Shown in pieces: positions 10,801 through 28,250 of a DNA stretch of 31,191 nt. The stretch's first letter is position 1, and the number at the start of each line of letters is the position of its first letter. Source of the DNA: a virus; IMG/VR virus record IMGVR_UViG_3300031236_000029, positions 1 to 31,191 of that record. One strand, written 5' to 3'. The position numbers and the translations under genes were made by a program. Under the pieces are notes generated by a model. That model saw nothing but the letters and a program-made list of their open reading frames with translations. It was not told where the DNA came from and did not search any database.

Positions 10801-12588
10801 TTACGACCCGATGTTCTCCGGCGGGCTGACAGTGCCAGCCGAGGCGCCGGTCGGGGCGATCTTGAGTGTCAGCTGCACGCTCTCGTGCCCCCGGAAGATG
10901 GCCTTCTCGAAGGACTCGGAAAACATTTGGAAGTCATTCGTGCGATTCAACGTCGAGTCCCGGACCATGCCGAGGTTGAGCTCCCCGCCGTCGAGGAACA
11001 TCCAGGCGCCCTCGTGGTAGAGCCACATCTGGGTCTCGACCGGCCACGGGGCCAGCTGCCCGGCGCCCTGAATCGGTATCCAGGTGAGAGCGGCGGCGCC
11101 GGTGGTGGCGGCGTTGGTCTGGGCCTCCATGGACCAGGTGACGTTCACGTTCCGGCTGCTCAGGTACTCGCCGATCTGGGCTTCGCTGGTGCTCAGCCGG
11201 TCCCAGGCGCTGTTGCTGTCGCCGGGAAGCTGGCGGGCCAGGTCGGCCTTGACCATGTCCTGTATCCACTCGGGGCAGATGAGCCGCAGTGGGGTGGTGC
11301 GGCGCATCCGGTTCCGGTAGCGGTAGGCGGCCGCGGCCCGGTCGATGGTGGCCACGAAGTCTCGGGCTGCGCCTAGCTCGTAGGTGTCGGCGATGGTGGC
11401 TGTCGACCCGGCGCTCACCTGGGCCAGCAGGTTGCTCTCGGCCACCCGGGCGTGCACGGCGTCGACGGTGTCCATGTACTCGGTGATCTGCTCGGGGAAA
11501 TACCGGGCCTGGAAGTTGCCGAACTGGACAATCGACGTGATGGCGTCGACGTAGTTCTCCAGCACGCCCTGGCACACGAAGGTGGCGTGGGGCTTGACGC
11601 TGGCGCCGGGGGCGGCGTCGGTGGCCTCGGTCCAGATGCTGCACGGCCCGTCGGCGGTGACGGCGGCCAGGGTGTGGGGGAGCACGTACCGGAGGCCGCC
11701 CCGGGTGGCCCCGAAGTTGGCCATGGCCCCTTGTACGGGCCGGTCGGCCACGGCGATGGCGGTCAGGCTGTAGTCGACGGCTACCGGGGCACACACGCCA
11801 CCGGAGGCCACCAGGGCCTGCTCGCCCACCACGGCACTGATTTTCTCCATGTTGCCTAGCTCGTTTTTGTCGAGCAGGCGGTCCTCGGGGAAGTCGACGT
11901 TGATGGAACCGAAGTAGACCTTCTCGGCCTGCCCGGCGGGCATGGGCTGGACCCGGAGGGCGGCCTGGCGGCGCATGCAGCTGTCAGCCCAGGAGCGCAG
12001 GTCGTCGGGGTCGACGCTGGCCCCGGCGGCCAGCCCGGGGATGTCGGCGGCTGCCACCAGTACGGCCCGGCCGCTGCGGGCCCCGTCGGTGGCGGTGGGG
12101 ATGGGAGCGGCCCGGTGGGGGCGGCTGCGGGCCAGGTGGGCCATGCTGGGTAGCTGGCGCCGGGCCGGGGTCGCCACCGGTTCGGGGGTGAAGGTGGCGC
12201 CGCTGGCGGCCACCGGTTCCGGCTCGACTACCGGTTCGGGTTCGGCCGGGGCGTCGACCGCTACGGGCTCGGCGGCCGGGTCGGCCTCGGCTACGACGGG
12301 CTCCGGGTCGGCGGCCGGGGCGGGCGGGTTGATCTGCTCAAGCAGGGCCTGAGCTTCGGCGGCCCGCTCGGCGGCGGCGGTCTCCCGCAGGTCGATTTCC
12401 TCCTGCACCCGGTTGAGGTTGTCGGCTGCTTCGCTCAGCAGTTCGATGTCCTCGGCCGTGGCCGCAGCGGGGTCGACGGTGGCGGCGGTCTCTCGCAGCG
12501 CAGTGCGCAGGCGCCCCAATTCGTCGTCGGTGAGCGGGTTGGTGGTGTCGCCCACTCGTGCCAGCAGGTCAAGCAGTTCCTGGTCCAT
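10801..12588 (-). CDS. Major capsid protein, HK97 fold, with N-terminal scaffold-like domain
   Basis: 595 residues from ATG 12588; GGAGGAGAGG lies 8 nt upstream. Residues 1-90 are strongly helical and acidic (a coiled coil of the delta-domain or scaffold type). Residues 90-145 are a Pro/Ala/Glu/Val linker with repeated EPEPV-like motifs. The HK97-type core starts near 170. Near the C-terminus, MFLDGGELNLGMVRDSTLNR followed by TNDFQMFSESFEKAIFRGHES matches the conserved P-domain and A-domain end of an actinophage capsid family. The N-terminal part is probably cut off by the protease encoded upstream; the site is not identifiable by eye. Expression is likely high given the good ribosome-binding site and the downstream hairpin. 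Confidence 0.9.
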   Translation of the reverse strand: MDQELLDLLARVGDTTNPLTDDELGRLRTALRETAATVDPAAATAEDIELLSEAADNLNRVQEEIDLRETAAAERAAEAQALLEQINPPAPAADPEPVVAEADPAAEPVAVDAPAEPEPVVEPEPVAASGATFTPEPVATPARRQLPSMAHLARSRPHRAAPIPTATDGARSGRAVLVAAADIPGLAAGASVDPDDLRSWADSCMRRQAALRVQPMPAGQAEKVYFGSINVDFPEDRLLDKNELGNMEKISAVVGEQALVASGGVCAPVAVDYSLTAIAVADRPVQGAMANFGATRGGLRYVLPHTLAAVTADGPCSIWTEATDAAPGASVKPHATFVCQGVLENYVDAITSIVQFGNFQARYFPEQITEYMDTVDAVHARVAESNLLAQVSAGSTATIADTYELGAARDFVATIDRAAAAYRYRNRMRRTTPLRLICPEWIQDMVKADLARQLPGDSNSAWDRLSTSEAQIGEYLSSRNVNVTWSMEAQTNAATTGAAALTWIPIQGAGQLAPWPVETQMWLYHEGAWMFLDGGELNLGMVRDSTLNRTNDFQMFSESFEKAIFRGHESVQLTLKIAPTGASAGTVSPPENIGS

Positions 12589-14883: not shown

Positions 14884-15036
14884 TCAGGTTTTCTTTCTGG
14901 GCCATCCGGCCCGGCGGTTGGCGCCCCGCAGGACCTTGGCGCCCCGGCCCTGTAGCCGCAGCTGGCGGCGCTGCTCATCGATGATGCGCACGAGCTCCCG
15001 TTGGCCCTTCGGGACGTAGCCGGGAGTGCCCTTCAC
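14884..15036 (-). CDS. Small, very basic protein coupled to protease gene
   Basis: 50 residues. GTG at 15036 overlaps the protease stop (GTGA). The sequence starts VKGTPGYVPKGQRELVRIID and ends with NRRAGWPRKKT. It is rich in Arg and Lys throughout, with a probable central helix (RELVRIIDEQRRQLRLQ). A basic peptide of this size beside head genes could bind DNA or an acidic scaffold. No family recognised. It is the last gene before the 45-bp gap that carries promoter-like motif A. Confidence 0.6.
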   Translation of the reverse strand: MKGTPGYVPKGQRELVRIIDEQRRQLRLQGRGAKVLRGANRRAGWPRKKT

Positions 15037-17711
15037 TTGGCTCCGGCGGCGGCCGGTGCGGGCTCCTGGTCCTCTTGGCCGTCGCGGCTCTGGGCGATGA
15101 TGGCCTCGTTGAGGGCGCTGAGCATGTCCTTGAGGTGGCTGCGGACCTGGGCGTCGTCGGGGTCGGTGGCGGCGTCGGGGTCGGCGTCCTGGGCGGTCAT
15201 GGCGGCGTGGGCGTCGCTGAGCAGCTTGTTGAGGGCTGCGCTCACGACGGCGTCCTGCTTGGTCGGGGTGGCGAACGTCCCGCTCATCTGGGCCTGCAGC
15301 CGTTCGGCCGCCAGGGGCCGTAGCGGGGCGACGGCCCGCTCCAGGCGCTCGAGCCGGTCGGCCAGGTCGCTGTTGTCCCGCTCCAGGGCGGCGATGTGCC
15401 GTTCCCATGGGAGGGGCTGGCGGACTACCCCGGCGGCGACCAGGGCCACGGGGACGTCGTTGCGCCATCCGATGCGCTGGGGGCCGATGGCGACGGCTCC
15501 GGCGGGCACGGTGAACCCGGCCGCGGCGAGGCTGGCGATGGGGAAGCCGGGGACGGTCACTCCGGCGAGGACGGCGAATAGCTCGAGGCCCTTGCCTTTC
15601 CAGACCTCGCGCCAGTCGCCGCTCAGGCTGCAAGCGAGGAAGGCGTCGACCTGTTCGTCGGTGGCGGCGGGCTCGATGTACCCGGCTACCCATGGGCCGT
15701 GGGGGTCGTGCCCGGCTGCCACGTGGGCCATGCGGATGGCTCCGGGGCCGCCGTCGTAGTGGGCCCGGACGTCGCCGAGTGGTAGGCGGGGGTCGGTGTC
15801 GGCGTGGCCGACGCCCATGGTCAGGTGGCCGATGTGGATGGCGTCGCCCTCGGCTGTCATCACCGGGCGCAGGTTGAAGGCGGCGTACCCGGTCTTGCTG
15901 AGCGGGGCCGTCACGCAGCGGTCGGTGATCCCGGTGTGGCAGGTGTTCTTGGGGGCGACGTGGCCGTACACGCGGCGCAGGCCGCCGTTGGCCGGGTCGG
16001 GCTCCTCGACGGTGAGCGGTACGGCGTAGTCGCCGTTGGGCTGGCGGACCAGGCGGGGGTCGCCGGGCTCCATGTCGGGCATCGTGAACCAGTCCCGGGG
16101 CGGGAGGGCGCCGGGCTCGGCCGCCGCGGTCAGGCTCGGGATGGTGGTGAACTCGATGCGGCCGTCCGGCTCGAATGGGTTGTCGAGGAAGGTCCCGGCG
16201 TCAATCCTGGTGACTGGGGCGGCGGTTCGTAGTGGCTCGGTGGGGCCGTTGCCGCCGATCCCTCCGGGCCTGTACCCGCCCTCGGTTATCACGCCGAGGT
16301 GCAGGCCGTCTACGGCTCCGGCCGGGAGGAATGTCTGGTGGACGGTGATACCGCTGGCAGCGGTGGGGGCTGGTGCGGGCTGGGCGGCCGCGGTCATTTC
16401 GATGTAGGCGTCCTGGAACGCAGGGAACGGGGTGCCGGTCAGGCCCATGACGGTGATGAGGCTGAAATGGGTCTCCCAGTTGCAGTCCATGTCGCACGCT
16501 TCGAGGTCGGTGCCGTGGGTCTCGCACTGGGGGGCGCCTTCGGCCTCGGCCACGTCGATGCTGACCCCGAACTTGCCTCGGGCCTGGATGATCTGCACGA
16601 ACTGGCGTCCGGCGTCGGTGGCGTCGAAGTCCCCGGCGCCGATGGCGATCTGGCCGATCTTGCCGGTGTTCATGATGGCCCCGGCGAGGACGGCGCCCAT
16701 GTGGCCCGGTTCGGTCTCGGTCTGCAGCATGAGCGGCAGCGGACAGTCCCGGTAGCCGATGGCGCCCGGCTCTATGAAGCGGCCGTCGCCGGTCGATACT
16801 CCCTCGAAGGCCATCTCGCTTTTCCAGCCGTCAGCGAGGACGGGCCGGGTGTCGCCGCTGTCCGCCAGTTGGCGGGCGATCACCTCGAGGGCGGCGGCGT
16901 AGCTGGGCGCGTTGGTCCACGGGACGCCTCCGGCGGTGAGGACGTGCCAGTTGTCGCCGTCCTGCTTCACGCCCCAGCTGCTCCCGAGCATCGGGTCCGG
17001 GTTGGCGTTCCCGCTGGCCATGAACACCATCCCGGCCAGCACGTTCTCCCAGTTGCCCTCGGCCCCGGGCGGGGTCTCCAGGCGGAAGCTGCCGGAGATG
17101 GTCGGCCGCCGTCCGCTGGCCGCCACCGGGCTGGTGCTGGCGGCGGCGTGGTCGTGGCGGTGCAGGTTGTCGCCCTGGTGGGCGTGGGCGTGGTCGTGGG
17201 TGTCGTCGTCGCCCTGCTGCCCGTAGGCGCTGTGGGGGTGGCTGTGGCTGCCGGTGTAGCTCTCGTGCAGGGCCGCGAACTGGGCGGCCAGGTCGTCGGG
17301 GGTGTCGTCCCGGTCCCATGCCTCTATCAGGGCGGCCAACTCGGCCATTGCGCTGGCGGCGATACTGTCGGGCGGGTCCTCCTTCAAGGCGGCGTAGTGG
17401 CTGCGCAGGTGGGCCTTGGCCTTGCTTACAGCCCCGGCGTCGTGGCCTTTCAGGCTGCTGGCCCGCTGGGCGGCGGCGTGGACGCCGTTCACGTTGACCT
17501 GGCCTCCGGGTTCGTGGTGGGGTAGGAAGCAGGCCGTTTTGGGCGGCGAGTCGCCCGGGTCGCAGGCCGCCGTCGCCATCTTGTACTGGGCGTCACTGAA
17601 CCGGCTGGCGCTCCCATCCCAAGGTTTGTCGGTGGTGCCCGCCGAGGTGGGACCGAAATGGTCCGCTCCGAACTCGTCGCCGCAGTCGGTGCAAGGCTGG
17701 TCATCGTCCAT
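15033..17711 (-). CDS. Capsid maturation protease with scaffold-like C-terminus
   Basis: 892 residues from ATG 17711. Residues 1-110 hold Cys/His motifs (CTDCGDEFG; C61-F-L-P-H-H) and a segment frequent at the start of actinophage proteases (RFSDAQYKMATAACD to NGVHAAAQR). Residues 155-188 are His-rich. Residues 297-440 form the protease core: EPGAIGYRDCPLPLMLQ, then GH337 in PGHMGAVLAGAI, then S384 in GVSIDV, then TPFPAFQDA; His and Ser fit the HK97-type catalytic pair. Residues 580-725 are the associated domain (VYGHVAPKNTCH, AHYDGGPGA, LSGDWREVW, VPGFPIAS). A coiled coil (772-810) and an acidic, helical end suggest a fused scaffold. It should cleave the capsid N-terminus during head assembly. 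The start lacks a good ribosome-binding site. Confidence 0.85.
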   Translation of the reverse strand: MDDDQPCTDCGDEFGADHFGPTSAGTTDKPWDGSASRFSDAQYKMATAACDPGDSPPKTACFLPHHEPGGQVNVNGVHAAAQRASSLKGHDAGAVSKAKAHLRSHYAALKEDPPDSIAASAMAELAALIEAWDRDDTPDDLAAQFAALHESYTGSHSHPHSAYGQQGDDDTHDHAHAHQGDNLHRHDHAAASTSPVAASGRRPTISGSFRLETPPGAEGNWENVLAGMVFMASGNANPDPMLGSSWGVKQDGDNWHVLTAGGVPWTNAPSYAAALEVIARQLADSGDTRPVLADGWKSEMAFEGVSTGDGRFIEPGAIGYRDCPLPLMLQTETEPGHMGAVLAGAIMNTGKIGQIAIGAGDFDATDAGRQFVQIIQARGKFGVSIDVAEAEGAPQCETHGTDLEACDMDCNWETHFSLITVMGLTGTPFPAFQDAYIEMTAAAQPAPAPTAASGITVHQTFLPAGAVDGLHLGVITEGGYRPGGIGGNGPTEPLRTAAPVTRIDAGTFLDNPFEPDGRIEFTTIPSLTAAAEPGALPPRDWFTMPDMEPGDPRLVRQPNGDYAVPLTVEEPDPANGGLRRVYGHVAPKNTCHTGITDRCVTAPLSKTGYAAFNLRPVMTAEGDAIHIGHLTMGVGHADTDPRLPLGDVRAHYDGGPGAIRMAHVAAGHDPHGPWVAGYIEPAATDEQVDAFLACSLSGDWREVWKGKGLELFAVLAGVTVPGFPIASLAAAGFTVPAGAVAIGPQRIGWRNDVPVALVAAGVVRQPLPWERHIAALERDNSDLADRLERLERAVAPLRPLAAERLQAQMSGTFATPTKQDAVVSAALNKLLSDAHAAMTAQDADPDAATDPDDAQVRSHLKDMLSALNEAIIAQSRDGQEDQEPAPAAAGAK

Positions 17712-17765: not shown

Positions 17766-18011
17766 TCAGGGTTCGGGCGGTCCCTTCGGGGTGGCCTTCG
17801 GTGCAGTGTCGATGGGTGGCGGCCAGCCCGGCAGCGGGAGGGCGGGCTTCATCTGGGCGACTATGGCCGCCGCCACCATCTGGGTGCGGACCCGGGCCAT
17901 CTTGATCGGGTTTTCCGGTCTGGCTCCGCTGGCCGGGCGCTTGCCCTTGGCCCGGGCGATGACGTCGGCGGTCCAGCGGTTGTCGGCCCGGGGCGGGGTC
18001 GGCTTGGTCAT
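17766..18011 (-). CDS. Small basic, Pro-rich protein after portal fusion
   Basis: 81 residues. ATG at 18011 overlaps the portal stop (ATGA). The N-terminal half is basic (KPTPPRADNRWTADVIARAK; ARPENPIKMARVRTQ), followed by a hydrophobic, Ala-rich stretch around MVAAAIVAQM and a Pro-rich end. No family recognised. Coupling between portal and protease suggests a head-assembly accessory protein, but this is only positional. Confidence 0.6.
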   Translation of the reverse strand: MTKPTPPRADNRWTADVIARAKGKRPASGARPENPIKMARVRTQMVAAAIVAQMKPALPLPGWPPPIDTAPKATPKGPPEP

Positions 18012-21000
18012 ATGAGGCCGCCTTCCCGGGCCGTCTGAATGATGGCCTGGTACAGCTGGGCGTAGCTCATCTGGCCGTCATCGAGCCCGGCCGGTATCAG
18101 CTGGTTGACCCGGTTGATTATGGCCTGGTCGGCCTCGCTGTAGTACGGCCCGGTCCACTCGTCTGAGCCTATCGGCTGGACGGCGGCGGCTTCGGGCTCG
18201 AGGGCGGTTAGCTCGGCTATGTAGTCGGCCTCGGTCATCTCGTATGGCGGGGTGCCGACACCGGGGCCGCTGGCGTACCCGAATATCTGTATGGCGTCGT
18301 CAGCACCCTGCTCGGCGTTGACCTGGGCCACCATGCCCACGCCTAGCGATTTGTCTCCGGCCCCGAACATGGCGTCCAGGTCGTAGGGGCTCTCCAGTAT
18401 TTTGTTGTAGCTCCAGCCGCCGTAGCGGGCCAGGTTGATCTGTTTGCCGTTGGCCAGGGCGTCGGCCAGGTCGACCATGCGGGTGTACTCCACCCAGGCC
18501 GACATGGGTTCGGTGCCCCGGCCGATGGCGTCCTCAAGGTCGGGTAGCAGCCGCTTGAGTTTGTCCTCGACCTCGGAGGGCTGCATGAGGGCGTGTTCCT
18601 CGGCGCTGCGAGATTTGGCGACGTTCTCCCGCTCGACCCAGCCGTTGGTGCGCAGGCGGCTGCGTTCCGCCTTGCTCATGTCGCTCCAGTACCAGTCCTG
18701 CTGGGCGTCCCGGGCGATGAACCCGATGCGGTCCATTTCGTTGTTCTGCAGCCAGCCTCGGGTGTCGTAGGCCAGCTGTTTGGCTCGGGCCTGAATGTCG
18801 GCCCGTATCTTGTTGTAGGCCGCCTTGGCCGCTTTCAGGTCCTCGTCGGTGACGTCGCCGGTGGCGTCTACCCAGCCCATGCGGGTGGCGAACTCGGCCG
18901 GGGTCTCGGTGCTGGCCGCGTACGCTTCCGCTTCGGCCTCCGCTTCGGCCTCCGCTTCGGCCGGGCCCACGCTCACGCCTTCGGCCTCGGCTTTGACCTC
19001 GATGCTCTGCGCCAGGGCGTCCTCCGGGGTGGCGGCCAGGGTCTTTAGGTCCTCTAGGGCCTGCACGTCGGCCGGGTCGGGTTTGGCCGCCGAGTACAGC
19101 CGCACGATCCACTTGTCCTTCGGCAGGCCGAACGGGCGGGGCGCTCCGGGCGGTATGAGCTTCTGGACGGTGTACTTGGCGCCTTTCGGGAGCACGGTCT
19201 CCTGTAACTCGGAGCGTTCCGTGTAGCCCAGCGGGTTGGCGATGGCACCGATGATGCCGTTGCCGTCCTCGATGACGACTATGGCCTGCACCTGGCGGGC
19301 GCCTTCGCCTTCGAGGTCGCTCTCGGCGTACTGGATGGCCACGTCCTTGGAGCCGGTGGTGGAGGTGAGCCGGTTCAACTCGGTGCGCCCCGGCTTCCAG
19401 GCGGCCCGCAGGTCGTCCTCGCTGGCGTAGCTCTCGCCCCGGAACACCGCCTTCCACGGCAGCGCCTGCCCTTTGGCCTCGGTCTGGATGAGGTTGGCCC
19501 ACTGGGTCAGTTCGTCCTTCTCGTCTGCGGTCAGGACGTGCCCGTTGTCGTAGTTGCGCATCTTTTCCGGCATGGTGCCGTCGAGCGCAGAGCGGAAGTC
19601 CGGTTCCCGGTAGGCCCACTGTTCCCACACGTCGCTGTTGACGATGCTGACGGCGGCCTCGTCGTCGTGGTAGCCGACGTGCGCCAGTTGCTTCCAGGTC
19701 GTGGCCGGGTCCGGGGTCGGCTCGGGCGGCTCCACCGGCAGCACCGTGCCCTCGGCGCTGGCGGGCGTCCCCATCTCGGCTTCGCCCGGCGCCTGGGCCT
19801 GCATCTGGGCCAGAGCCTGCTCCATGTCAGGGGTTTCGGTGCCCTGGCTTTCGCCTTCCGGCCCGACCAGGATCGGGATCAGATCACACGAGCAGCCCGG
19901 GTGGTCTCCGGGGAACGGGGTGTCGGTGTCAGGGAAGCCGTCGTAGCTGGCCCCCCACTCGAACTCGCTGGGCTCGGCCCGTATCTCGCCGTCGAGGTCG
20001 AGGTGGGGTTGGAACTCGCTGCGGACCCCGGCGCCGTACTCCCACTGGTAGCCCTCGGTGCTGCCCCCGGCGTCCTCTAGCACGCCCATCACCTGCGGGC
20101 CGGTGGCTATCCCGCCGACGGGGTCGCCGTCGCCGTCGGTCACGGGGCCGCCGCTTATCTCGGCCCAGGCGCTGGCGCTCAGCCCTTGGCTGACCATGGT
20201 GCCGCCCTTGGGTATTACCCCTCCGGCTACGGCCAGGGCGGCCCGGACCAGGTTGGCCGGGATGAGGACGGTGCCGTCCTGCTCGCCGGGCTCGGCTCCG
20301 GGGGCGGGCTCGTACAGGCGTTGGGCCGCCAGGGCCTGCAGGTTCTCGGTCAGCCAGTCCTTGGCCCGGTCGACGTGGGCGGCGTGGTCGGTGTCCATCT
20401 GCTCCCGGGTGGCCGGGGCTATCGGCCCGACTACTTTCTCGACCGCGGTCAGGGCCCGCTCGTAGCCGCCGTCCATCCACATGGCGATGGTCTCTACCGC
20501 CGGGCCGAAGGCCCCGTCCAGCAGGGCTTCGTCGCTCATCCCGGTTTGGGCTACCACCGCCCGGCCCAGGGTGGCCGCGATGGCGGTCGGGTGGGCGTTG
20601 ATGATGGCCGTGTGCATCAGGTTCTGGCCTTCGCCGGGGTCGCCGTACACGCCCTTGCGGGCCACCTCGACCCGCTTCAGTCGGCCCTTTATGCGGTTCC
20701 CGGCCCGCTCTAACCCGGTGGCCATGGCGTTGTCCAGCCGGGCGGTTATACGGGACCGCAGGTCCCGGTCCACCCCAGCCAGGAAGATACCGAGTTTACG
20801 CCAGGCGTCCGGGCCGGGCCGGGCCGCGGCGGTGAGCGGGCCGGGGCCTAGGGCCCGGGTGGCCTGGGTCGGCAACGGCGGCGGCGGTGTCGCTGGCGCT
20901 CCGGCCGGGGCCTGGACGGGCAGGGCGCTCACCGGGCTGGTGTCGTCGAGCACTCCGGCCGCCGGGCCCGGTATCTCGATGTCGGGGAAGATGGTGGCCC

Positions 21001-23521
21001 GGAGTATCTGCCCGAGGATGGTGGGGTCCATGCGGGGGGCGTTCAGCACCAGGCGCAGGAGCCGCTCAATGTCGTCGGGGGCGTCCTCCTCGCTGTAGCC
21101 CAGGTACCGGCGGTAGGCCTGGTCGCTGATGAGCATGTCCTTGTGGGCGGTCGGGGCCTGCTCGGCCACGTCAGGCTGCAGGATGACGTCGGCGGCGTCG
21201 AACCACACGAAGATGGTGCGGGCTATCTCGGGGTCGACTCCGGCTTCCTCCAGGGCCCACTGGAAGTAGCCGCCGGTGATGGCGTCGCACACCAGCACGG
21301 CCCGAGGTTCGATGTGGTCATCGAAGATGCTGCGCCGTATCTGCAGCTGGTTGTTGAAGGTGGTATTAAGCGAGCCGGTCGTGGTCTCCACCGGCATGTT
21401 CAGCCCCCGGCCGATACGCAGGATTCTCTGCTCTATGCGGGCGTCGAGCGTCGGGTCCATGCCCCGGTCCAGGCTGATGTGGGCGACGGCCTTCAACACT
21501 TCGGCCGGGCCGCGCACCACGAGAGGGACGACGGCGCTGGCTGAGCCCTCCTCCTGGATGGGGGTGATCATGGCTTCGGCCAGTTCGGCGTCGAACGGGT
21601 CGTCGGTCTCCTCGCCGTCGCCGCCGTCGCGGGTCGGGTCGACGCTCCCGAAACTCAGTTCGCTGGGCATCAGCAGGATGCCGTTGCTGAGTCGGCTCTT
21701 GCTCGAAGCCCGTATCTCTCGGCTCAACAGCAGCAGGGCTTCTATCTCGGCCAGCACCTTGCGCATGGCGCAAGTGGCGAGCTCCGAGAACCTCGGGTGG
21801 CGCTCCCAGATCCGTATAACCAGGTCGGTGTCGGGGATCGGGTCGAGGACCTTGACTCCGGGTCCCCGCCGGAGGGCGAAGCTGTCGCCGTGGATGACCA
21901 GTTCGTCCACGCTGCGGACCTGCCAGTCCTCCACGTCATTCGGGCTGGGCGCCGGGAAGGTGTCGGGGTCGTTCGGGTCGTAGTCCTCGTCGGGGTCGGG
22001 TAGCTCCGGGTTCTCCAGGTGGCCGTGCAGATACAGTTCGCCGCACACCTCCAGGTTGAGGCTCAACTCGCGGACGATGGCGCTCTGGCCGCCCTGGATG
22101 CTTCTCAGCCGGGCCAGGGTGTCGGTGGCGATCTTGGCTATCTCCGGGCTGATCTGGGCTTTCTCGTCGTCCACGGCGACGGGTGCCTCTTTGGTGTCGG
22201 GCCGGACGGCCGGGTAGAGGCGCAGCTTGCTCATCAGGTTGGCTATGAAGGTGGTCGTGTATGCGACCTCACCGCAGTTGCCGGTGTAGAAGACGGTCCC
22301 GTTGCGGCGGGCCAGCCAGGTGTGGTTGGCGGTGGTCGGGCACCAAACGGTGCCGGTGTAGGCGGTCTGTTCCCGGCGGCATTTCCCGACCCATGCCGTT
22401 GTCCGCTGGCCGATAGTCAATAGCCAGCGGTCCTCGGTGGCGTCTTTGTGGAGTCTCGGGGTTCGGCCCGAAAGGATGACGGCCATTTCGAGGGCGGCTA
22501 GGCGGTCGCGTTCGGCTTGGCCTATTACGGTGGCGCCGCTGGCCCCGCGGTGCCCGTCGGCGTCGATCGATACGTTGATGAACAGTTCTAGCTGGGCGGC
22601 TGTCAGCGCCATCACGAACTCGGGGCGTACGTGCTTGTTGGGGGCTAGCGCCAGGATCGTGTCGGAAGCTGTCTTGTTGAGCTTGAAATGTGAGATGCGG
22701 CTCCCGGCCGGACGGTGTTCCCGCCAGGCCGGGTTCGGGTTCGGTCTGCGTCCGGCTCCCAGCGAGGCCGATTCGTGTCCGAAGACGTCTGTGAGCACGG
22801 CTCGGATACGGGCCGTGTGGCCTGGGTTGTGAGCCCATGACTGGTAGATGGTCACTCGTCCTCGAGGGATGGTGCCTTCGGTCCAGAACCAGGCCATCAC
22901 CTCCACTAGCGCATCCGAATATTTCGCTTCGGTGGGCAGGTCGGCACACGGGGCGGCCGTGCGGAACCGGTCGTGTGGGGCCAGGTCGGCCGAGGTGGCC
23001 CACATCTCGGTATAGAGATAGTTGCTGGTGCGGCGCTCGACGTACCAGCGGTGGTCGAGCGTCGAGAGCGAGGAGTGGGACTGGTTTTCCATCGCCATCA
23101 TCGGTCTGTTTTCGACGGCGATCCGGGTGACCCGCTGGACCGGCTGCCATTCGCTGCGGGCCGTGTCGGTGTTCAACGTAAGGACGATGTCGCCTGGCCG
23201 TAGCGTGTCGTGGCGCTCCCAGCCGCGTTCGGTCAGTATCTCGGTGTCGTCGCTGAGGCACTCGTCCCAGTAGTCCCAGGCTTCGGTCTGCCAGGCCTGA
23301 CGGCGGCGCCGGGTGTTCTCTATGGCCCGCCGGTCGTGCATGTTGATGCGGGCGGCGCTGGCCACGAAGGCGTTGGGTACGCCGTCGGCCCGGCCGTAGG
23401 GGTGGTGTCCGTTGGTGCCCGGTTCGGCCAGCAGCAGGTCGCCCTCGTCGTCGGGGGGGGCGGCGTTCCCGGCTGCCTCGCGGGCCCGGCGTTCTTTGGG
23501 GGTTTCCGGTCCGGCTGGCAC
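18008..23521 (-). CDS. Portal - MuF-like - ADP-ribosyltransferase fusion, interrupted by an intein
   Basis: 1837 residues (1509 after splicing), from GTG 23521 directly after the DUF1360 stop. Layout: portal 1-87 and 416 to about 870 (AWDYWDE joined to CGEVAYTTTF; DRGMDPTLDARIEQRILRIG; PVETTTGSLNTTFNNQLQIR); Pro-rich linker 870-900; MuF-like head protein about 905-1217, ending in the diagnostic PGDHPGCSCDLIP; ADP-ribosyltransferase-like domain about 1275-1460 (VFRGE with R1361; LTSTTGS 1385-1391; ELQETVLPKGAKYTV from E1438); an Ala-Glu repeat 1521-1533; and an unrecognised C-terminal region of about 300 residues. Portal forms the ring through which DNA is packaged. MuF proteins usually sit inside the head. 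The transferase may act on host proteins after injection, which is inference. No frameshift or stop separates the parts. Confidence 0.88.
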   Translation of the reverse strand: MPAGPETPKERRAREAAGNAAPPDDEGDLLLAEPGTNGHHPYGRADGVPNAFVASAARINMHDRRAIENTRRRRQAWQTEAWDYWDECLSDDTEILTERGWERHDTLRPGDIVLTLNTDTARSEWQPVQRVTRIAVENRPMMAMENQSHSSLSTLDHRWYVERRTSNYLYTEMWATSADLAPHDRFRTAAPCADLPTEAKYSDALVEVMAWFWTEGTIPRGRVTIYQSWAHNPGHTARIRAVLTDVFGHESASLGAGRRPNPNPAWREHRPAGSRISHFKLNKTASDTILALAPNKHVRPEFVMALTAAQLELFINVSIDADGHRGASGATVIGQAERDRLAALEMAVILSGRTPRLHKDATEDRWLLTIGQRTTAWVGKCRREQTAYTGTVWCPTTANHTWLARRNGTVFYTGNCGEVAYTTTFIANLMSKLRLYPAVRPDTKEAPVAVDDEKAQISPEIAKIATDTLARLRSIQGGQSAIVRELSLNLEVCGELYLHGHLENPELPDPDEDYDPNDPDTFPAPSPNDVEDWQVRSVDELVIHGDSFALRRGPGVKVLDPIPDTDLVIRIWERHPRFSELATCAMRKVLAEIEALLLLSREIRASSKSRLSNGILLMPSELSFGSVDPTRDGGDGEETDDPFDAELAEAMITPIQEEGSASAVVPLVVRGPAEVLKAVAHISLDRGMDPTLDARIEQRILRIGRGLNMPVETTTGSLNTTFNNQLQIRRSIFDDHIEPRAVLVCDAITGGYFQWALEEAGVDPEIARTIFVWFDAADVILQPDVAEQAPTAHKDMLISDQAYRRYLGYSEEDAPDDIERLLRLVLNAPRMDPTILGQILRATIFPDIEIPGPAAGVLDDTSPVSALPVQAPAGAPATPPPPLPTQATRALGPGPLTAAARPGPDAWRKLGIFLAGVDRDLRSRITARLDNAMATGLERAGNRIKGRLKRVEVARKGVYGDPGEGQNLMHTAIINAHPTAIAATLGRAVVAQTGMSDEALLDGAFGPAVETIAMWMDGGYERALTAVEKVVGPIAPATREQMDTDHAAHVDRAKDWLTENLQALAAQRLYEPAPGAEPGEQDGTVLIPANLVRAALAVAGGVIPKGGTMVSQGLSASAWAEISGGPVTDGDGDPVGGIATGPQVMGVLEDAGGSTEGYQWEYGAGVRSEFQPHLDLDGEIRAEPSEFEWGASYDGFPDTDTPFPGDHPGCSCDLIPILVGPEGESQGTETPDMEQALAQMQAQAPGEAEMGTPASAEGTVLPVEPPEPTPDPATTWKQLAHVGYHDDEAAVSIVNSDVWEQWAYREPDFRSALDGTMPEKMRNYDNGHVLTADEKDELTQWANLIQTEAKGQALPWKAVFRGESYASEDDLRAAWKPGRTELNRLTSTTGSKDVAIQYAESDLEGEGARQVQAIVVIEDGNGIIGAIANPLGYTERSELQETVLPKGAKYTVQKLIPPGAPRPFGLPKDKWIVRLYSAAKPDPADVQALEDLKTLAATPEDALAQSIEVKAEAEGVSVGPAEAEAEAEAEAEAYAASTETPAEFATRMGWVDATGDVTDEDLKAAKAAYNKIRADIQARAKQLAYDTRGWLQNNEMDRIGFIARDAQQDWYWSDMSKAERSRLRTNGWVERENVAKSRSAEEHALMQPSEVEDKLKRLLPDLEDAIGRGTEPMSAWVEYTRMVDLADALANGKQINLARYGGWSYNKILESPYDLDAMFGAGDKSLGVGMVAQVNAEQGADDAIQIFGYASGPGVGTPPYEMTEADYIAELTALEPEAAAVQPIGSDEWTGPYYSEADQAIINRVNQLIPAGLDDGQMSYAQLYQAIIQTAREGGLI
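19142..19699 (-). other. ADP-ribosyltransferase-like domain within portal fusion
   Basis: Residues about 1275-1460. The pattern fits the R-S-E type: aromatic-Arg-Gly in WKAVFRGES (R1361), a Ser-Thr motif in LNRLTSTTGSKDVAIQYA, and an acidic motif followed by LPKGAKYTV, as in EXE-LLP-x-G-x-KF of known toxins. The exact E-x-E is not present: the Glu residues are E1435, E1438 and E1441, and the residue two before E1441 is Leu. Activity is therefore uncertain. Confidence 0.65.
22277..23260 (-). mobile_element. Intein with LAGLIDADG homing endonuclease, class 3-like (WCT) signature
   Basis: 328 residues, C88 to N415 of the portal fusion. Block A starts CLSDDTEILTERGW. Block B is STLDHRWYV, with T154, H157 and W159 (position B:12). 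Block F is TVWCPTTANHTW, with C394 at F:4. Block G is FYTGN followed by C416, with T413 at G:5 and N415 as last residue. W159, C394 and T413 make the Trp-Cys-Thr set of class 3 inteins, yet Cys is kept at position 1. The penultimate His is replaced by Gly. Endonuclease motifs LVEVMAWFWTEG (E215) and FINVSIDADGH (D322) look intact. Flanks WDYWDE and CGEVAYTTTF join into a continuous portal sequence. AT-rich patches (for example near 22920) suggest a composition slightly unlike its host gene. Confidence 0.93.
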
Positions 23522-23824
23522 CTAGCCCTCGATCCTGGTGAGCGTCGCTTCGATTATGGGGGCGGCGGCGGCAGCGGTGAGGGCCAAGGCTATCGGGCGC
23601 CAGGCTCGGGGGGTCAGGAGCCGGGCCGCGGTGACGGCCGCCCCGGTCCAAATGCCGACGCAGTACGAGCAGGTCACCAGGTAGGTGATGCTGCTGTCCG
23701 GGCCGAAGAAGTCCATCACTTTGTCGCGCAGGGCTGCTACCGGAGGGAAGGCGTCGGCCGTCACGAGATGGGTTATGCGCCACGCACTGGCGCAGTCCGT
23801 CGCCAGGTCCAGGGCGGTGCTCAC
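23522..23824 (-). CDS. DUF1360-like small membrane protein
   Basis: 100 residues from GTG 23824, overlapping the upstream stop (GTGA); its TAG stop directly abuts the portal GTG. Motif YLVTCSYCVGIWTG (C52-x2-C55, with the VGIW ending) is characteristic of DUF1360 proteins. Two hydrophobic segments (about 48-70 and 76-95) are probably membrane-spanning, and the Cys pair lies in the first. DUF1360 members occur in phages and in some Gram-positive bacteria; their role is not known to me. A membrane protein next to a portal gene is odd. Confidence 0.7.
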   Translation of the reverse strand: MSTALDLATDCASAWRITHLVTADAFPPVAALRDKVMDFFGPDSSITYLVTCSYCVGIWTGAAVTAARLLTPRAWRPIALALTAAAAAPIIEATLTRIEG

Positions 23825-24349: not shown

Positions 24350-25504
24350 TCAGTCGGCTGCTGCCAGCCACAGGTCTTTGAGGATGGCCTTGCCTACAAT
24401 GCGCAGGGCGTCGGCGTGCTGGTGGCCTGCCGCCCAGGGCGATCCCGGCTGGGCCGGGTGGCCGCTGGGGCCGCACCGGACACAGGGCCCGGCGTGAACA
24501 CGCTCGGCTGTGATGGCTCGGCGTTCCTCGTACACCTGTCGATACGGCCACGCAGCCGCCGCCACCGTGGGTTCCGGCCCTGCGATGGGCTGCGTGGCCG
24601 AAAGATTCCCATCAGCCGGTTTTCCCATGGGTTCCGGATCGACGCTGGGCTGGTGGGAAGAGGTCGAGCCCAGCGGGGGGGTTTTGGGTTCCGTGCGCCC
24701 GCTGGCTGGGCGAGAGGGGTCCTGGTCCGGGGATTGCTTGGGTTGCGGGTGGGCGCTGGGACCAGGAGGGGTCTCGCTCAGCGGCTGTTCTCTGGGTTGC
24801 GAGCTGACACTGGCTGGGCGAGAGGGGTCCGGACGGTGTCTGGCCTGCCGAGGGGTCGTGCGGCCGGGTTCCTTGATGGCGCTCTCGGCCAGGAGATGGG
24901 CGAGCATTTTGAGCGTCGGGTTCCCGAGGGCGAATAGCTCGTCGGCGGTCATCCCTTTCGTCGCCCGCCCGGGCCGTCCGTGGCCGCAGTACTGCCATAG
25001 CTCACCCACGGTGCGCTCGAATGGCGGGTCGGGCACCAGCTTGCGCTCGTCGCCGCTGCCCTCCCAGTGGGACGGGGTGGCGATGCGGGGGTGACCCAGG
25101 TGACCTAGGAGCCGGGCCAGCAGGTCGATACCGATGCCCGTCGAATCGGCCTGCCATTGTTTCACTCCTGGCGGTGCGGCCCGCCGGTACTGGCGGCGCA
25201 GGCCCAACCGGATGCGATGCTCGGCGGCCTCGGCCTCGGCTAGCTCGGCCGCGAAAATGTCGGGGAACACCGGGGCCCGCTCGATCCGGTTGGCTAAGCG
25301 AATCCGGGCCACCTGGGCGTCATGAAACATCTCGGCCCAGACCTTGAGAATGCGGTACTCGGTCAGGTCGTAGTTCACAGGTCGTACGCCCGAGGCGGCG
25401 GATGCCTGGGTTGCGCCACTCCTATGGCCTCGGGCGTACGTGGTCCCCGAAGGGCCGGAAGCCGTATGGGTTCCGGAAACTCTCTGGGCCCGTCGGGGGA
25501 TCAT
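24350..25504 (-). CDS. IS110-like helix-hairpin-helix domain protein (putative DNA-binding)
   Basis: 384 residues from ATG 25504, overlapping the upstream stop (ATGA), with GGAGG 4 nt upstream. Residues 1-45 are low-complexity. Residues 46-110 are helical and charged. Residues 113-212 contain KQWQADSTGIGIDLLARLLG, HPRIATPSHWEG, RTVGELWQYCGHG and GMTADELFALGNPTLKMLAH. This matches the helix-hairpin-helix half of IS110/IS116/IS902 transposases (GIG, G-x-P, L-x-x-Y-x-G) as found in stand-alone actinobacterial proteins. No DEDD catalytic domain is seen, so transposition is unlikely. Residues 213-325 are Pro/Ser/Gln-rich and disordered. The end has CVRC and a His-rich turn, perhaps metal-binding. 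Confidence 0.6.
   Translation of the reverse strand: MIPRRAQRVSGTHTASGPSGTTYARGHRSGATQASAASGVRPVNYDLTEYRILKVWAEMFHDAQVARIRLANRIERAPVFPDIFAAELAEAEAAEHRIRLGLRRQYRRAAPPGVKQWQADSTGIGIDLLARLLGHLGHPRIATPSHWEGSGDERKLVPDPPFERTVGELWQYCGHGRPGRATKGMTADELFALGNPTLKMLAHLLAESAIKEPGRTTPRQARHRPDPSRPASVSSQPREQPLSETPPGPSAHPQPKQSPDQDPSRPASGRTEPKTPPLGSTSSHQPSVDPEPMGKPADGNLSATQPIAGPEPTVAAAAWPYRQVYEERRAITAERVHAGPCVRCGPSGHPAQPGSPWAAGHQHADALRIVGKAILKDLWLAAAD
25383..25440. repeat. Perfect 14-bp inverted repeat, 30-nt loop, inside coding region
   Basis: Arms 25383-25396 (cgtacgcccgaggc) and 25427-25440 (gcctcgggcgtacg) are exact reverse complements, 30 bases apart. Both lie in the 5' part of the 384-aa gene, in its low-complexity N-terminal coding stretch. 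No U-run follows, so it is not a classic terminator. It could be a protein-binding or recombination site, or a chance result of Arg/Gly-rich codons. Confidence 0.6.
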
Positions 25505-26299: not shown

Positions 26300-26544
26300 C
26301 TCCGGCGTGGTTGGCGCTCGCTGGGCGACTGGCGGGGTCCTACCTTCGGCAGGTCGCTGCCGCTGCCTCCGCTGTAGTTGGGGTGGCCCTGCACCCATTT
26401 CCACCATCGGGCTCGGGCCGCCCGGCGGCTGGGTGGGGGTGCGGCCGGGGGCAGGCTGCTCACGAACTCGGGTCTGTCTTTCGTGTCGGGGGCTATCTGG
26501 CGTTGCACCTCGGCCAGGCGGTCGGCTTTCTCGTCGCGGTCCAT
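26296..26544 (-). CDS. Small basic protein coupled to terminase
   Basis: 82 residues. ATG at 26544 shares a base with the terminase stop (TGATG). N-terminal 25 residues are a charged helix (DRDEKADRLAEVQRQI). After a Pro-rich turn comes RRAARARWWKWVQGHPNYSG, a basic, Trp-rich stretch, and an Arg-rich end. Trp/Arg-rich segments of this kind could contact DNA or the terminase. No family recognised. It ends with TAA inside the promoter-like motif B. Confidence 0.65.
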   Translation of the reverse strand: MDRDEKADRLAEVQRQIAPDTKDRPEFVSSLPPAAPPPSRRAARARWWKWVQGHPNYSGGSGSDLPKVGPRQSPSERQPRRR

Positions 26545-28250
26545 CAGTAGCCTCCGGTCCTGGGGGTCACGACCCGGCCGGTGCGGGCAGCGGTGGTGCC
26601 CTGGCGGGTGTTGATGGGCGCTTTCGGGATCGAGCCTGCCGCCCTGGTGACGGTGGCGCTCCCTCGGGCCAGTTTGCTGAGGGCTTGACTGGTGGCGTCG
26701 CACTGGTCGTCGTGGGCGCCCTGCGGGAAGCTGGCCATCTCCTCCAGGTAGGCGCCGATGTAGTCCCGCTTCAGGAGGTGGACGTCGCCCGCCTCCATGT
26801 AGCCGCTCACGGCCCGCAGCCGGACGCCCTTGCTGCCCTTGACGATCACCGGCAGGAGGGCTCCCATGCCCCGGCGGCGCAGGTTATTGACGGCGTCGGC
26901 CTCGCCGGGGCCCATGCCTAGCTGCCCGGCAACGTCGTCGCTGACGGTGTAGCCGGGGTGGCTGGAACGCAGTGCCTCCATCACCTCTGGACCATTCCCG
27001 GTATTTTCGATGTGGTGGGCTCGTATGTCGGGGTGACGTACGGCCATGAGGGCGATGGCGGCCTCGGTGGTGGCCTGGTTCCACTGGCCCCGTAGCTGGT
27101 CTCCGAGCCAAAAATCTTTGCCGGTGCGGCCCCAGTACTGGCCGACCACGTAGTCGCCGGTCTCCTTGTCCTTCAGTTTCATGTCCCAGCTTGAGATGGC
27201 GGTATCGAAGCGGGGGGGCAGGGCGTCCTCTATCCGGAACCAGGCCCGCTTTATGTCGCCGCCCTCCTCGGGGCTGGGCCGCTGCTGGTACATGCTGGCC
27301 GTTAGGTAGCTCCCGGCGATGCGATGCTTGAGGCGGATGCTCTCGATGCGGAACCGCTCGGGCTCTATGGGCTGGCCCGGGGCCCGGCCGAGGGGGTCGG
27401 GGAGGCGCAGCCAGGGGTGGGCGCTGTCCATCTGGGGTGGTTCGGCTAGCTCGGGAATGCGGACCAGTTCCCACTCGACGCCGCTCTCCTGCTCCATGCG
27501 GGCCAGGAGCCGTCCGCTCAAATCTTCCTCGTGCCAGCGGGTCATGGGCACGATCATCCAGCTGGTCTCGGTCTCCAGGGTTCCCGCCACTACCGACCGG
27601 AATTGATTGTCGATGGCGTCGCGCTGGGCCGCTGAGTGGGCTTCGGGCCAGCCCTTGTGGGGGTCATCGAAGATGGCCCCGTCGGCGCCGAACCCGACGA
27701 TGCCGGAGTGGATGCCTCGGGCTAGGACGCTGCCGCCTTCGGTGGTCACGAAGCGTCCGGCCTGCTGGCGGTCGGGGCGTAGCTGGGCTCTCAGCTGGTC
27801 GCCGTGCTGGCGGAGTATGTCCCGTACGGCGACGGCGTTCTCTAGGGCTAGCTCGTCGCCGTAGCTGACCAGGAGGAGCTTGAGGTGGGGGTAGTGGTCG
27901 AGCGCCCAGGCCGGGCCCCATTGGCTGGCGAAGAAGCTCTTGCCGTACCGGCGGGGCAGGTTCCATATCTGCCGGGTGCTGCGGCCTTCTACGGCGTCGA
28001 CGAACTTCTCGCCCAGCAGGCGGCTGTAGCGCCATAGCTTGACCCGGCCGTTGGTCAGGTGGTGGGCCATGGTGGTCGGGGTGGCCCGCCAGTCGGCGCC
28101 CTCGTATTCCAGGGCGGTGATGGCGGTGGCTACAACTCGGGCCTCGTCCGGGTTGAGCCCGGCGATGTAGGCGGCCCGCTGCTCGGTGGTGAGCGCCTGC
28201 AGGGCCCGGCCTAGTTCCATGGCTTCGGCCGGGCTGATGGTGACCGTCAC
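26544..28250 (-). CDS. terL: Terminase large subunit (packaging ATPase and nuclease)
   Basis: 568 residues from GTG 28250, one base after the lysin stop. ATPase half: Walker A LPRRYGKSF (98-106), Walker B GAIFDDP (191-197), coupling motif VPMTRWH (234-240). Nuclease half: D356 in SSWDMKLKD, E415 in HHIENTGNG, and D514/D515 with D518 in GAHDDQCDA, the three acidic clusters of the RNase H-like fold. Length is normal for the family. It drives DNA into the procapsid through the portal and cuts the concatemer. The N-terminal 60 residues are an extra helical stretch. No small subunit is recognised beside it; the gene before it is a lysin and the gene after it is an 82-aa protein. Confidence 0.93.
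   Translation of the reverse strand: MTVTISPAEAMELGRALQALTTEQRAAYIAGLNPDEARVVATAITALEYEGADWRATPTTMAHHLTNGRVKLWRYSRLLGEKFVDAVEGRSTRQIWNLPRRYGKSFFASQWGPAWALDHYPHLKLLLVSYGDELALENAVAVRDILRQHGDQLRAQLRPDRQQAGRFVTTEGGSVLARGIHSGIVGFGADGAIFDDPHKGWPEAHSAAQRDAIDNQFRSVVAGTLETETSWMIVPMTRWHEEDLSGRLLARMEQESGVEWELVRIPELAEPPQMDSAHPWLRLPDPLGRAPGQPIEPERFRIESIRLKHRIAGSYLTASMYQQRPSPEEGGDIKRAWFRIEDALPPRFDTAISSWDMKLKDKETGDYVVGQYWGRTGKDFWLGDQLRGQWNQATTEAAIALMAVRHPDIRAHHIENTGNGPEVMEALRSSHPGYTVSDDVAGQLGMGPGEADAVNNLRRRGMGALLPVIVKGSKGVRLRAVSGYMEAGDVHLLKRDYIGAYLEEMASFPQGAHDDQCDATSQALSKLARGSATVTRAAGSIPKAPINTRQGTTAARTGRVVTPRTGGY

Follow-up and report, generated by a model that had tools for sequence, protein, structure and literature searches.

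Can the splicing class of an intein be read from the residues it conserves? Trp at block position B:12, Cys at F:4 and Thr at G:5 (together the Trp-Cys-Thr or WCT set) currently serve as the criterion by which an intein is assigned to class 3 when only its sequence is known. We addressed this question with an intein, hereafter the query, that interrupts the portal gene of a virus, IMG/VR record IMGVR_UViG_3300031236_000029, of which positions 1 to 31,191 form the window, the whole stretch of 31,191 nucleotides analysed. The query, encoded by the minus strand at 22277-23260, carries the full WCT set together with Cys at position 1, and an earlier reading of the window (the original prediction) had placed it in class 3. 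Cys1 and the WCT set proved invariant in a family of 92 inteins that, outside these signature residues, groups with other Cys1 inteins of phages, suggesting that the class 3 assignment is probably wrong. With a probability that we put at roughly 0.6, the query would instead be a mobile LAGLIDADG intein, one of a large family from actinobacterial phages and prophages, that starts splicing at Cys1, as class 1 inteins do, and whose WCT set originated independently of class 3.

A portal intein with both Cys1 and the WCT set

The query comprises 328 residues without interruption inside an open reading frame (ORF) of 1837 residues (18008-23521, minus strand, as are all features of this gene), and is delimited by its translation, by full-length relatives and by a structure model. 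Its limits agree to the nucleotide with the original prediction: it opens with Cys1 (TGC, 23260-23258), closes with Asn328 (AAC, 22279-22277) and is followed by Cys+1 of the C-extein (TGC, 22276-22274). The N-extein is the start of the portal ORF (87 codons, 23261-23521, from the ORF reading), and the C-extein is the portal domain (20657-22276), which is recognized by homologues and by the match of ORF residues 415-955 to PHROG phrog_776 (E 2.1e-78), bearing out the host as a portal gene. ORF residues W159, C394 and T413 correspond to intein residues Trp72 (B:12, 23045-23047), Cys307 (F:4, 22340-22342) and Thr326 (G:5), the last standing in the terminal Thr326-Gly327-Asn328 (TGN, blocks G:5-G:7, 22277-22285). 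Block B reads T67-L-D-H70-R-W72, with Thr67 at B:7 (23060-23062) and His70 at B:10 (23051-23053), a TxxH of class 1 type. The HINT domain is split by a two-motif domain of the homing-endonuclease (LAGLIDADG) kind, whose first motif covers residues 116-129 (22874-22915, VEVMAWFWTEG, acid E128, present in at least 90% of 52 aligned rows) and whose second covers residues 224-236 (22553-22591, LFINVSIDADG, acid D235, invariant in the 52 rows). The original prediction was thus correct about the sequence: the WCT set, Cys1, Cys+1 and the TGN end are present, Gly327 takes the place of the penultimate His, and the LAGLIDADG pair looks intact.

Published definitions divide over such an intein. It has the position-1 nucleophile (Cys, Ser or Thr) and the TxxH of class 1, and lacks the penultimate His that is usual, although not strict, in that class. 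Class 2 inteins have a non-nucleophile at position 1 and a KlbA host (PMC4031507); the query has Cys1 and a portal host. The WCT set of class 3 is complete, yet the 1701 class 3 inteins of PMC7891396 are defined by the absence of Cys1, and a census of that type would omit the query and its relatives by construction.

Both features are fixed across a family

We next assembled 92 non-redundant inteins, the query included, and aligned them over the 328 query columns. At E 0.01, tblastn with the intein found matches in 234 phage records out of 50,697, a number that takes in wider relatives. An IMG/VR scan gave 262 pattern matches and 214 relatives, of which the best 80 were kept, and a scan of bacterial genomes with a block C pattern alone gave 27 matches, 20 of them relatives. 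Removal of near-copies reduced 108 members to 90; L112 (decayed), L002 (a copy of the query) and L012 (outside the family) were dropped, and two inteins of L068 that tblastn had merged were recut by hand and both restored to the 92.

Ten of the 328 columns are invariant in all 92 members: Cys1, Gly13, Trp38, His70, Trp72, Trp306, Cys307, Gly321, Thr326 and Asn328, the Trp72 count being taken with the pattern [TSN]xxHxW. The penultimate Gly is kept in 91 of 92. Because the IMG/VR patterns were drawn from blocks F and G, the counts at F:4, G:5 and G:6 are partly biased for those 80 loci; among the 20 relatives recruited by block C alone, Cys1 was present in 20 and Cys F:4 in 19 (the exception being L112). 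The residue after the intein is less constrained (Ser 51, Thr 33 and Cys 6 in 90 members).

A second recruitment used a whole-intein profile built from 13 rows, all motif-bearing, against two overlapping samples of actinobacterial genomes. At E 0.001 it matched 23 of 394 genomes and 44 of 200, the latter genomes of one family and the matches including wider relatives. The loci returned held 35 distinct full-length family inteins (33 without near-copies; 10 identical to earlier ones and 25 new), all with Cys1, HRW, Cys F:4 and TGN, and most sharing one insertion site. The same search returned five relatives that lack the Trp and have Cys1, Cys F:4 and a Ser- or Cys-Gly-Asn end.

Chance cannot account for the set, given its invariance across 92 non-redundant members. 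The signature that the original prediction saw in the query is therefore real and is not peculiar to it. The combination is a stable family trait; with WCT and Cys1 both invariant, WCT may not decide class, and judged from these alignments WCT alone is a doubtful class marker.

Cultured or deposited phages carry full-length homologues that are 33-42% identical to the query. Gordonia phages Belphegor, Hail2Pitt, Lahirium and Woes have family inteins in their portals, as does Caudovirales GX15bay; those of Gordonia phages GMA3, GordTnk2 and GordDuk1 are in TerL, and that of Mycobacterium phage Pinkcreek is in gp135. Nine inteins read residue by residue (Belphegor, Pinkcreek, GX15bay, Hail2Pitt, GordTnk2, GMA3, GordDuk1 and IMG/VR loci L003 and L004) all have Cys1, HxW, Cys F:4 and TGN, with Ser (6), Cys (2) or Thr (1) at +1. 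Compared with the query, the cultured-phage inteins occupy other insertion sites or genes. The record features shown for the seven named phages among the nine do not mention an intein, and no description of a Cys1/WCT family was found in the literature searched, although one may exist beyond it. Its members provide a large natural set of proteins, cultured Gordonia phages among the sources, with which to ask whether class 3 arose by gain of WCT ahead of the loss of residue 1. One member, L071:2612-3586, is the only one of the 92 with a penultimate His (THN) and provides a natural control.

Comparison with class 3 inteins

If the query followed the class 3 route, Cys F:4 would attack the N-terminal junction directly and Cys1 would be an unneeded leftover. 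That all 92 members have the complete WCT set along with His B:10 is what this route would lead one to see; an unneeded Cys1, in contrast, should drift. We examined position 1 in class 3 inteins, recruited with an endonuclease-motif pattern from nine phage references (best 80 of 589 kept), one of which, the Omegavirus terminase intein, matches the solved class 3 DnaB inteins 6rix, 6bs8 and 6riy. Of the 80 loci, 79 were parsed (L163, truncated, was left out), giving 76 without near-copies. Position 1 is Ala in 48 of the 76 and Cys in 2, and where the match starts at query residue 1 or 2, so that position 1 is sure, Cys occurs in 1 of 52. Thus position 1 is free to vary in class 3 and fixed in the query family.

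Block B and the C-terminal end also differ. TxxH is typical of class 1, whereas class 3 inteins have Asp or Gly, or DxxH (PMC7891396, PMC12245125). In our sets B:7 is Asp in 52 and Thr in 2 of 83 class 3 rows, as against Thr in 89 and Ser in 3 of the 92 family members. G:6 is His in 72 of 76 class 3 inteins. Cys F:4, counted by fixed offset, is found in 74 of 76, the exceptions being a shift (L176) and a true Ser (L218). Class 3 rows without HxW, namely L195 (Phe at B:12) and reference L127 (Asn at B:12), were excluded from the B:7 count and from the trees below, and L126 (Ser at G:5) was left unused. Among class 3 inteins, Msm and Mch DnaB1, the phage inteins of TerL and DnaB and the ET08 exonuclease intein share with the query Trp B:12, Cys F:4, Thr G:5, His B:10 and the HINT fold, and differ from it in the rarity of Cys1, the mostly Asp B:7, the His at G:6 and a clade of their own in free trees.

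Inteins that combine WCT with a nucleophile at position 1 would bear on this route. Tori and Perler (2011) reportedly described WCT inteins with Ser1 or Cys1. The intein in ET08 gp202 (an exonuclease gene), presumably of the same type as that of Catera Gp206, starts with Ser and has Trp-Cys-Thr. Catera Gp206 is listed as class 3 (PMC3196547). Because the ET08 intein falls inside the class 3 clade (82-row tree), it is no precedent for the query family. With Cys1 invariant, TxxH in block B and class 3 itself defined by the absence of Cys1 (PMC7891396), we consider the class 3 route unlikely for the query.

Relationships outside the signature columns

To compare the families without the residues in dispute, the six signature columns were masked in scoring and removed from trees. 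The comparison group was formed by inteins that end in x-Gly-Asn (xGN) and lack the Trp. Cys1/xGN inteins of mycobacteriophages (RDF/phosphoesterase, TOPRIM/primase, DNA methylase and nucleotidyltransferase) share with the query Cys1, TxxH, Cys F:4, Gly G:6 and a two-motif endonuclease region, and differ in having Val or Met at B:12 and not always Thr at G:5. With the signature masked, all 30 family rows scored best with the model of xGN inteins without Trp, and mean query scores were 87.8 bits with that model, 19.9 with class 3 and 3.6 with bacterial class 1 inteins, for which F:4 was read from aligned letters, a fixed-offset count being unreliable there. A smaller xGN model was best for 32 of 32 rows (the 30 family rows and two other Cys1/Trp inteins). 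Profile comparison agreed, matching the family to four xGN inteins without Trp at E 3e-35 over 311 columns and to class 3 at E 2.5e-10 over 259 columns.

Trees of 82 and 85 rows were built with 30 of the 92 family rows and 30 of the 83 class 3 rows, picked for diversity. In both free trees class 3, which is reported as monophyletic (PMC3196547, PMC4031507), forms a single clade (100/99) that excludes the query, and the query falls in a clade of family and xGN inteins (36 rows, 100/95, in the 82-row tree; 41 rows, 100/96, in the 85-row tree). Forks inside this clade are mostly open, and a branch that sets the family apart from all other rows was recovered in 32% of bootstrap replicates for the first tree and 0% for the second. 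Trees and topology tests rest on only 112-114 usable columns, with unsettled bootstraps. The original prediction had proposed a tree as a check and firm placement among class 1 inteins as its refutation; what the trees give is part of this, a separation from class 3 in free trees alongside approximately unbiased (AU) tests that do not reject a joint WCT clade. Convergence, that is, a separate origin of the family's WCT set, is favoured by these comparisons, not proved.

We also considered descent of class 3 from the query family, for which there was no support. The family model gave the highest score for 12 of 30 class 3 rows and the bacterial class 1 model for the other 18; when each model was built from four rows, the split was 6 for the family, 11 for xGN inteins without Trp and 13 for class 1. 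Class 3 rows averaged 10.1 bits with the family and 12.0 with bacterial class 1, so that the family is not the closer of the two, and class 3 matched a six-row xGN profile (E 1.1e-14) better than it matched the family (E 2.5e-10).

Predicted fold

An AlphaFold2 model of the query, made from the window protein and 51 relatives, had a mean predicted local distance difference test score (pLDDT) of 97.1 and a predicted template modelling score (pTM) of 0.93. By Foldseek and VIA-align it matches VMA-type inteins with a LAGLIDADG domain, among them 7qsu, a full-length HINT and LAGLIDADG intein (TM 0.70 by query length, Z 25.8, root-mean-square deviation 3.4 over 299 residues, 1-328 against 1-371). 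Ssp DnaB (1mi8) gave Z 17.2. Identity in the structural alignment to the class 3 AceL intein is only 13%. As modelled, the fold does not tell intein class. Sequence alone had found the intein in neither type of database: no match rose above the cut-off in Pfam or NCBIfam (Pfam Hint_2 fell below its own), and a sequence-only search of the PDB gave none at E 0.001.

Proposed splicing mechanism

Under the class 1 reading, Cys1 would form the linear thioester, aided by TxxH, Cys+1 would take over the N-extein, and Asn328 would cyclise without a penultimate His, with Gly in its place, an arrangement shared with the phage RDF intein. The helper, which is Asp F:4 in the majority of class 1 inteins, would here be Cys F:4. 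Trp B:12 and Thr G:5 would be packing or assisting residues fixed within the Cys1/xGN lineage, in which case WCT evolved independently of class 3. We take the kind of the Bethlehem RDF intein to be part of this wider lineage, in which the intein annotated as phosphoesterase in phage MetalQZJ (L016) serves as its proxy. The Bethlehem RDF intein is treated as a class 1 intein and splices fully with a penultimate Gly, and changing that Gly to His slowed splicing (PMC5050341). Each letter of WCT is also reported outside class 3: Trp occurs among class 1 B:12 residues (PMC7891396), Cys is the second commonest F:4 residue across inteins in general (PMC4031507), with class 1 inteins bearing Cys F:4 being reported as polyphyletic (PMC3196547, citing Tori and Perler 2011), and Thr at G:5 is sporadic in class 1 (PMC12245125). 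Together with the class 1 treatment of the Gly-bearing RDF intein, these reports lead us to prefer a start at Cys1 as in class 1, assisted by Cys F:4.

Several results weigh against this reading. AU tests did not reject the family and class 3 as one clade (p 0.227; 0.379 with L017 added), nor all WCT rows of the larger set as one clade (p 0.145), and their compatibility with a single WCT origin speaks for the class 3 route; compared with the 82-row free tree, a topology uniting family, xGN and class 3 inteins to the exclusion of bacterial class 1 gained 10.5 log units. The family is distant from bacterial class 1 as well, at the 3.6 bits given above. In structural alignments the highest identities are to class 3 DnaB entries (6rix 26%, 6riy 24%, 6bs8 23%), against 11-19% for the class 1 entries listed, at similar Z, and the entries that hold a splicing domain only are headed by AceL NrdHF (class 3, Z 19.4). 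Tori and Perler (2011) reportedly assigned to class 3 at least one WCT intein that has a nucleophile at position 1. No Cys1 mutants of the query family or of the RDF intein were found in the literature searched. Finally, a purely class 1 mechanism only partly explains why Cys F:4 and Thr G:5 should be fixed as strictly as Cys1.

This last point leaves room for a relay or dual-nucleophile mechanism, in which the acyl group would pass from Cys1 to Cys F:4 and on to the +1 residue, or either Cys would start the reaction. Both nucleophiles are jointly invariant with the Trp, His and Thr in 92 of 92 members and in the 35 profile-recruited inteins, and the +1 residue varies among Ser, Thr and Cys, all as a relay might produce. 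Against it, relatives without Trp also hold Cys1 and Cys F:4 (9 of 9 xGN rows), which suggests that Cys F:4 may simply assist, as in class 1; class 3 rows also lie no closer to the query family than to bacterial class 1. We regard such a relay as quite unlikely. That the whole family is a stable hybrid of classes 1 and 3, with Cys1 and Cys F:4 both nucleophiles in one splicing path, seems to us a shade more doubtful again; if true, it would make the family a living model of the origin of class 3, in which WCT was fixed first and Cys1 lost later.

Insertion sites and mobility

An intein-free homologous portal was looked for and found in L260, which is 48% identical over 535 aligned columns, with a gapless alignment across the insertion site. 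Cys+1 is indeed present in the query's C-extein, as the original prediction had it, but is no conserved portal residue, being Val in L260 and Ile in L025. The intein and portal of L025 are each 55% identical to those of the query, with the insertion six columns downstream of the query site; upstream insertions lie five columns away in L029, L031 and L032 and nine in L030. Related inteins thus occupy four insertion points within 16 aligned portal columns, which makes this portal segment an insertion hot spot. In L035, L040 and L050, also phrog_776 portals, family inteins sit much farther along the gene, at a break in the profile match near positions 339-344. Under the class 1 reading of the query as a mobile intein, its endonuclease would copy the intein gene into intein-free portals of this kind. 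Cluster C1 mycobacteriophages also carry inteins in portal genes (PMC5050341).

Host genes and decayed relatives

Host genes were scanned in 15 family members. Eight are portals, six of them of phrog_776 (L025, L029, L030, L035, L040 and L050) and two of other portal families (L055 and L068). The remainder include a terminase (L027), endolysins (L053 and L102), a PD-(D/E)XK nuclease (L026), a cytosine methylase (L113) and glycosyltransferases (L045 above and L100 below the Pfam cut-off). Endolysins and glycosyltransferases are not expected to bind nucleic acid. Mycobacteriophage intein hosts do bind it (PMC5050341).

Family inteins occur at one site in endolysin- or amidase-like genes of Herbidospora, Nonomuraea, Nocardiopsis and similar genomes (L053 and L102, whose host genes alone were scanned in this group, and loci that share their flanks, such as L263-L270). 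A single portal ORF, L068:3065-6046 of IMGVR_UViG_3300037258_000549 (phrog_12, E 3.8e-53), holds two family inteins, both with a Cys start and a TGN end, the first of which, at 143 residues, is too short for an endonuclease. Inteins of L284, L285 and L292 have Cys1, Cys F:4 and an SGN or CGN end and are preceded by MRDRHG, a putative ThyX motif.

Two relatives are free-standing and splicing-dead with an open endonuclease region: L112 of Streptomyces tateyamensis, which has lost Cys F:4 and the terminal Asn, and L304, which has no Cys1 at the junction, ends in TGA and keeps HRW and Cys F:4. Such copies raise the question of whether the query too is a splicing-inactive passenger of its endonuclease, or a cleaving HINT domain, and the literature searched held no splicing data for it. 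However, every recognised catalytic residue of the query is intact and its portal host is expected to be essential, whereas the dead copies have no recognisable extein and have lost the terminal Asn in both cases, with Cys F:4 gone from L112 and Cys1 from L304. We consider a passenger or merely cleaving role very improbable.

Genomic surroundings

The intein gene lies within a head module, as the same window encodes a terminase (26544-28250), a major head protein (10801-12588) and, at 15033-17711, a second ORF resembling a portal or protease, with matches to portal and head-maturation-protease PHROGs (phrog_859, E 6.3e-61; phrog_18402, E 2.6e-24). The GC content of the intein is 65.0%, against 69.1% for the whole window. 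Beyond the portal match the portal ORF extends for about 880 residues (18008-20656), a part without a Pfam or PHROG match. A 504-residue ORF in another frame (22269-23783) overlaps the intein and is probably a high-GC artefact. Close to the portal gene, the ORF at 24350-25504 has a match (E 4.5e-38) to phrog_4285, which is annotated as a transposase.

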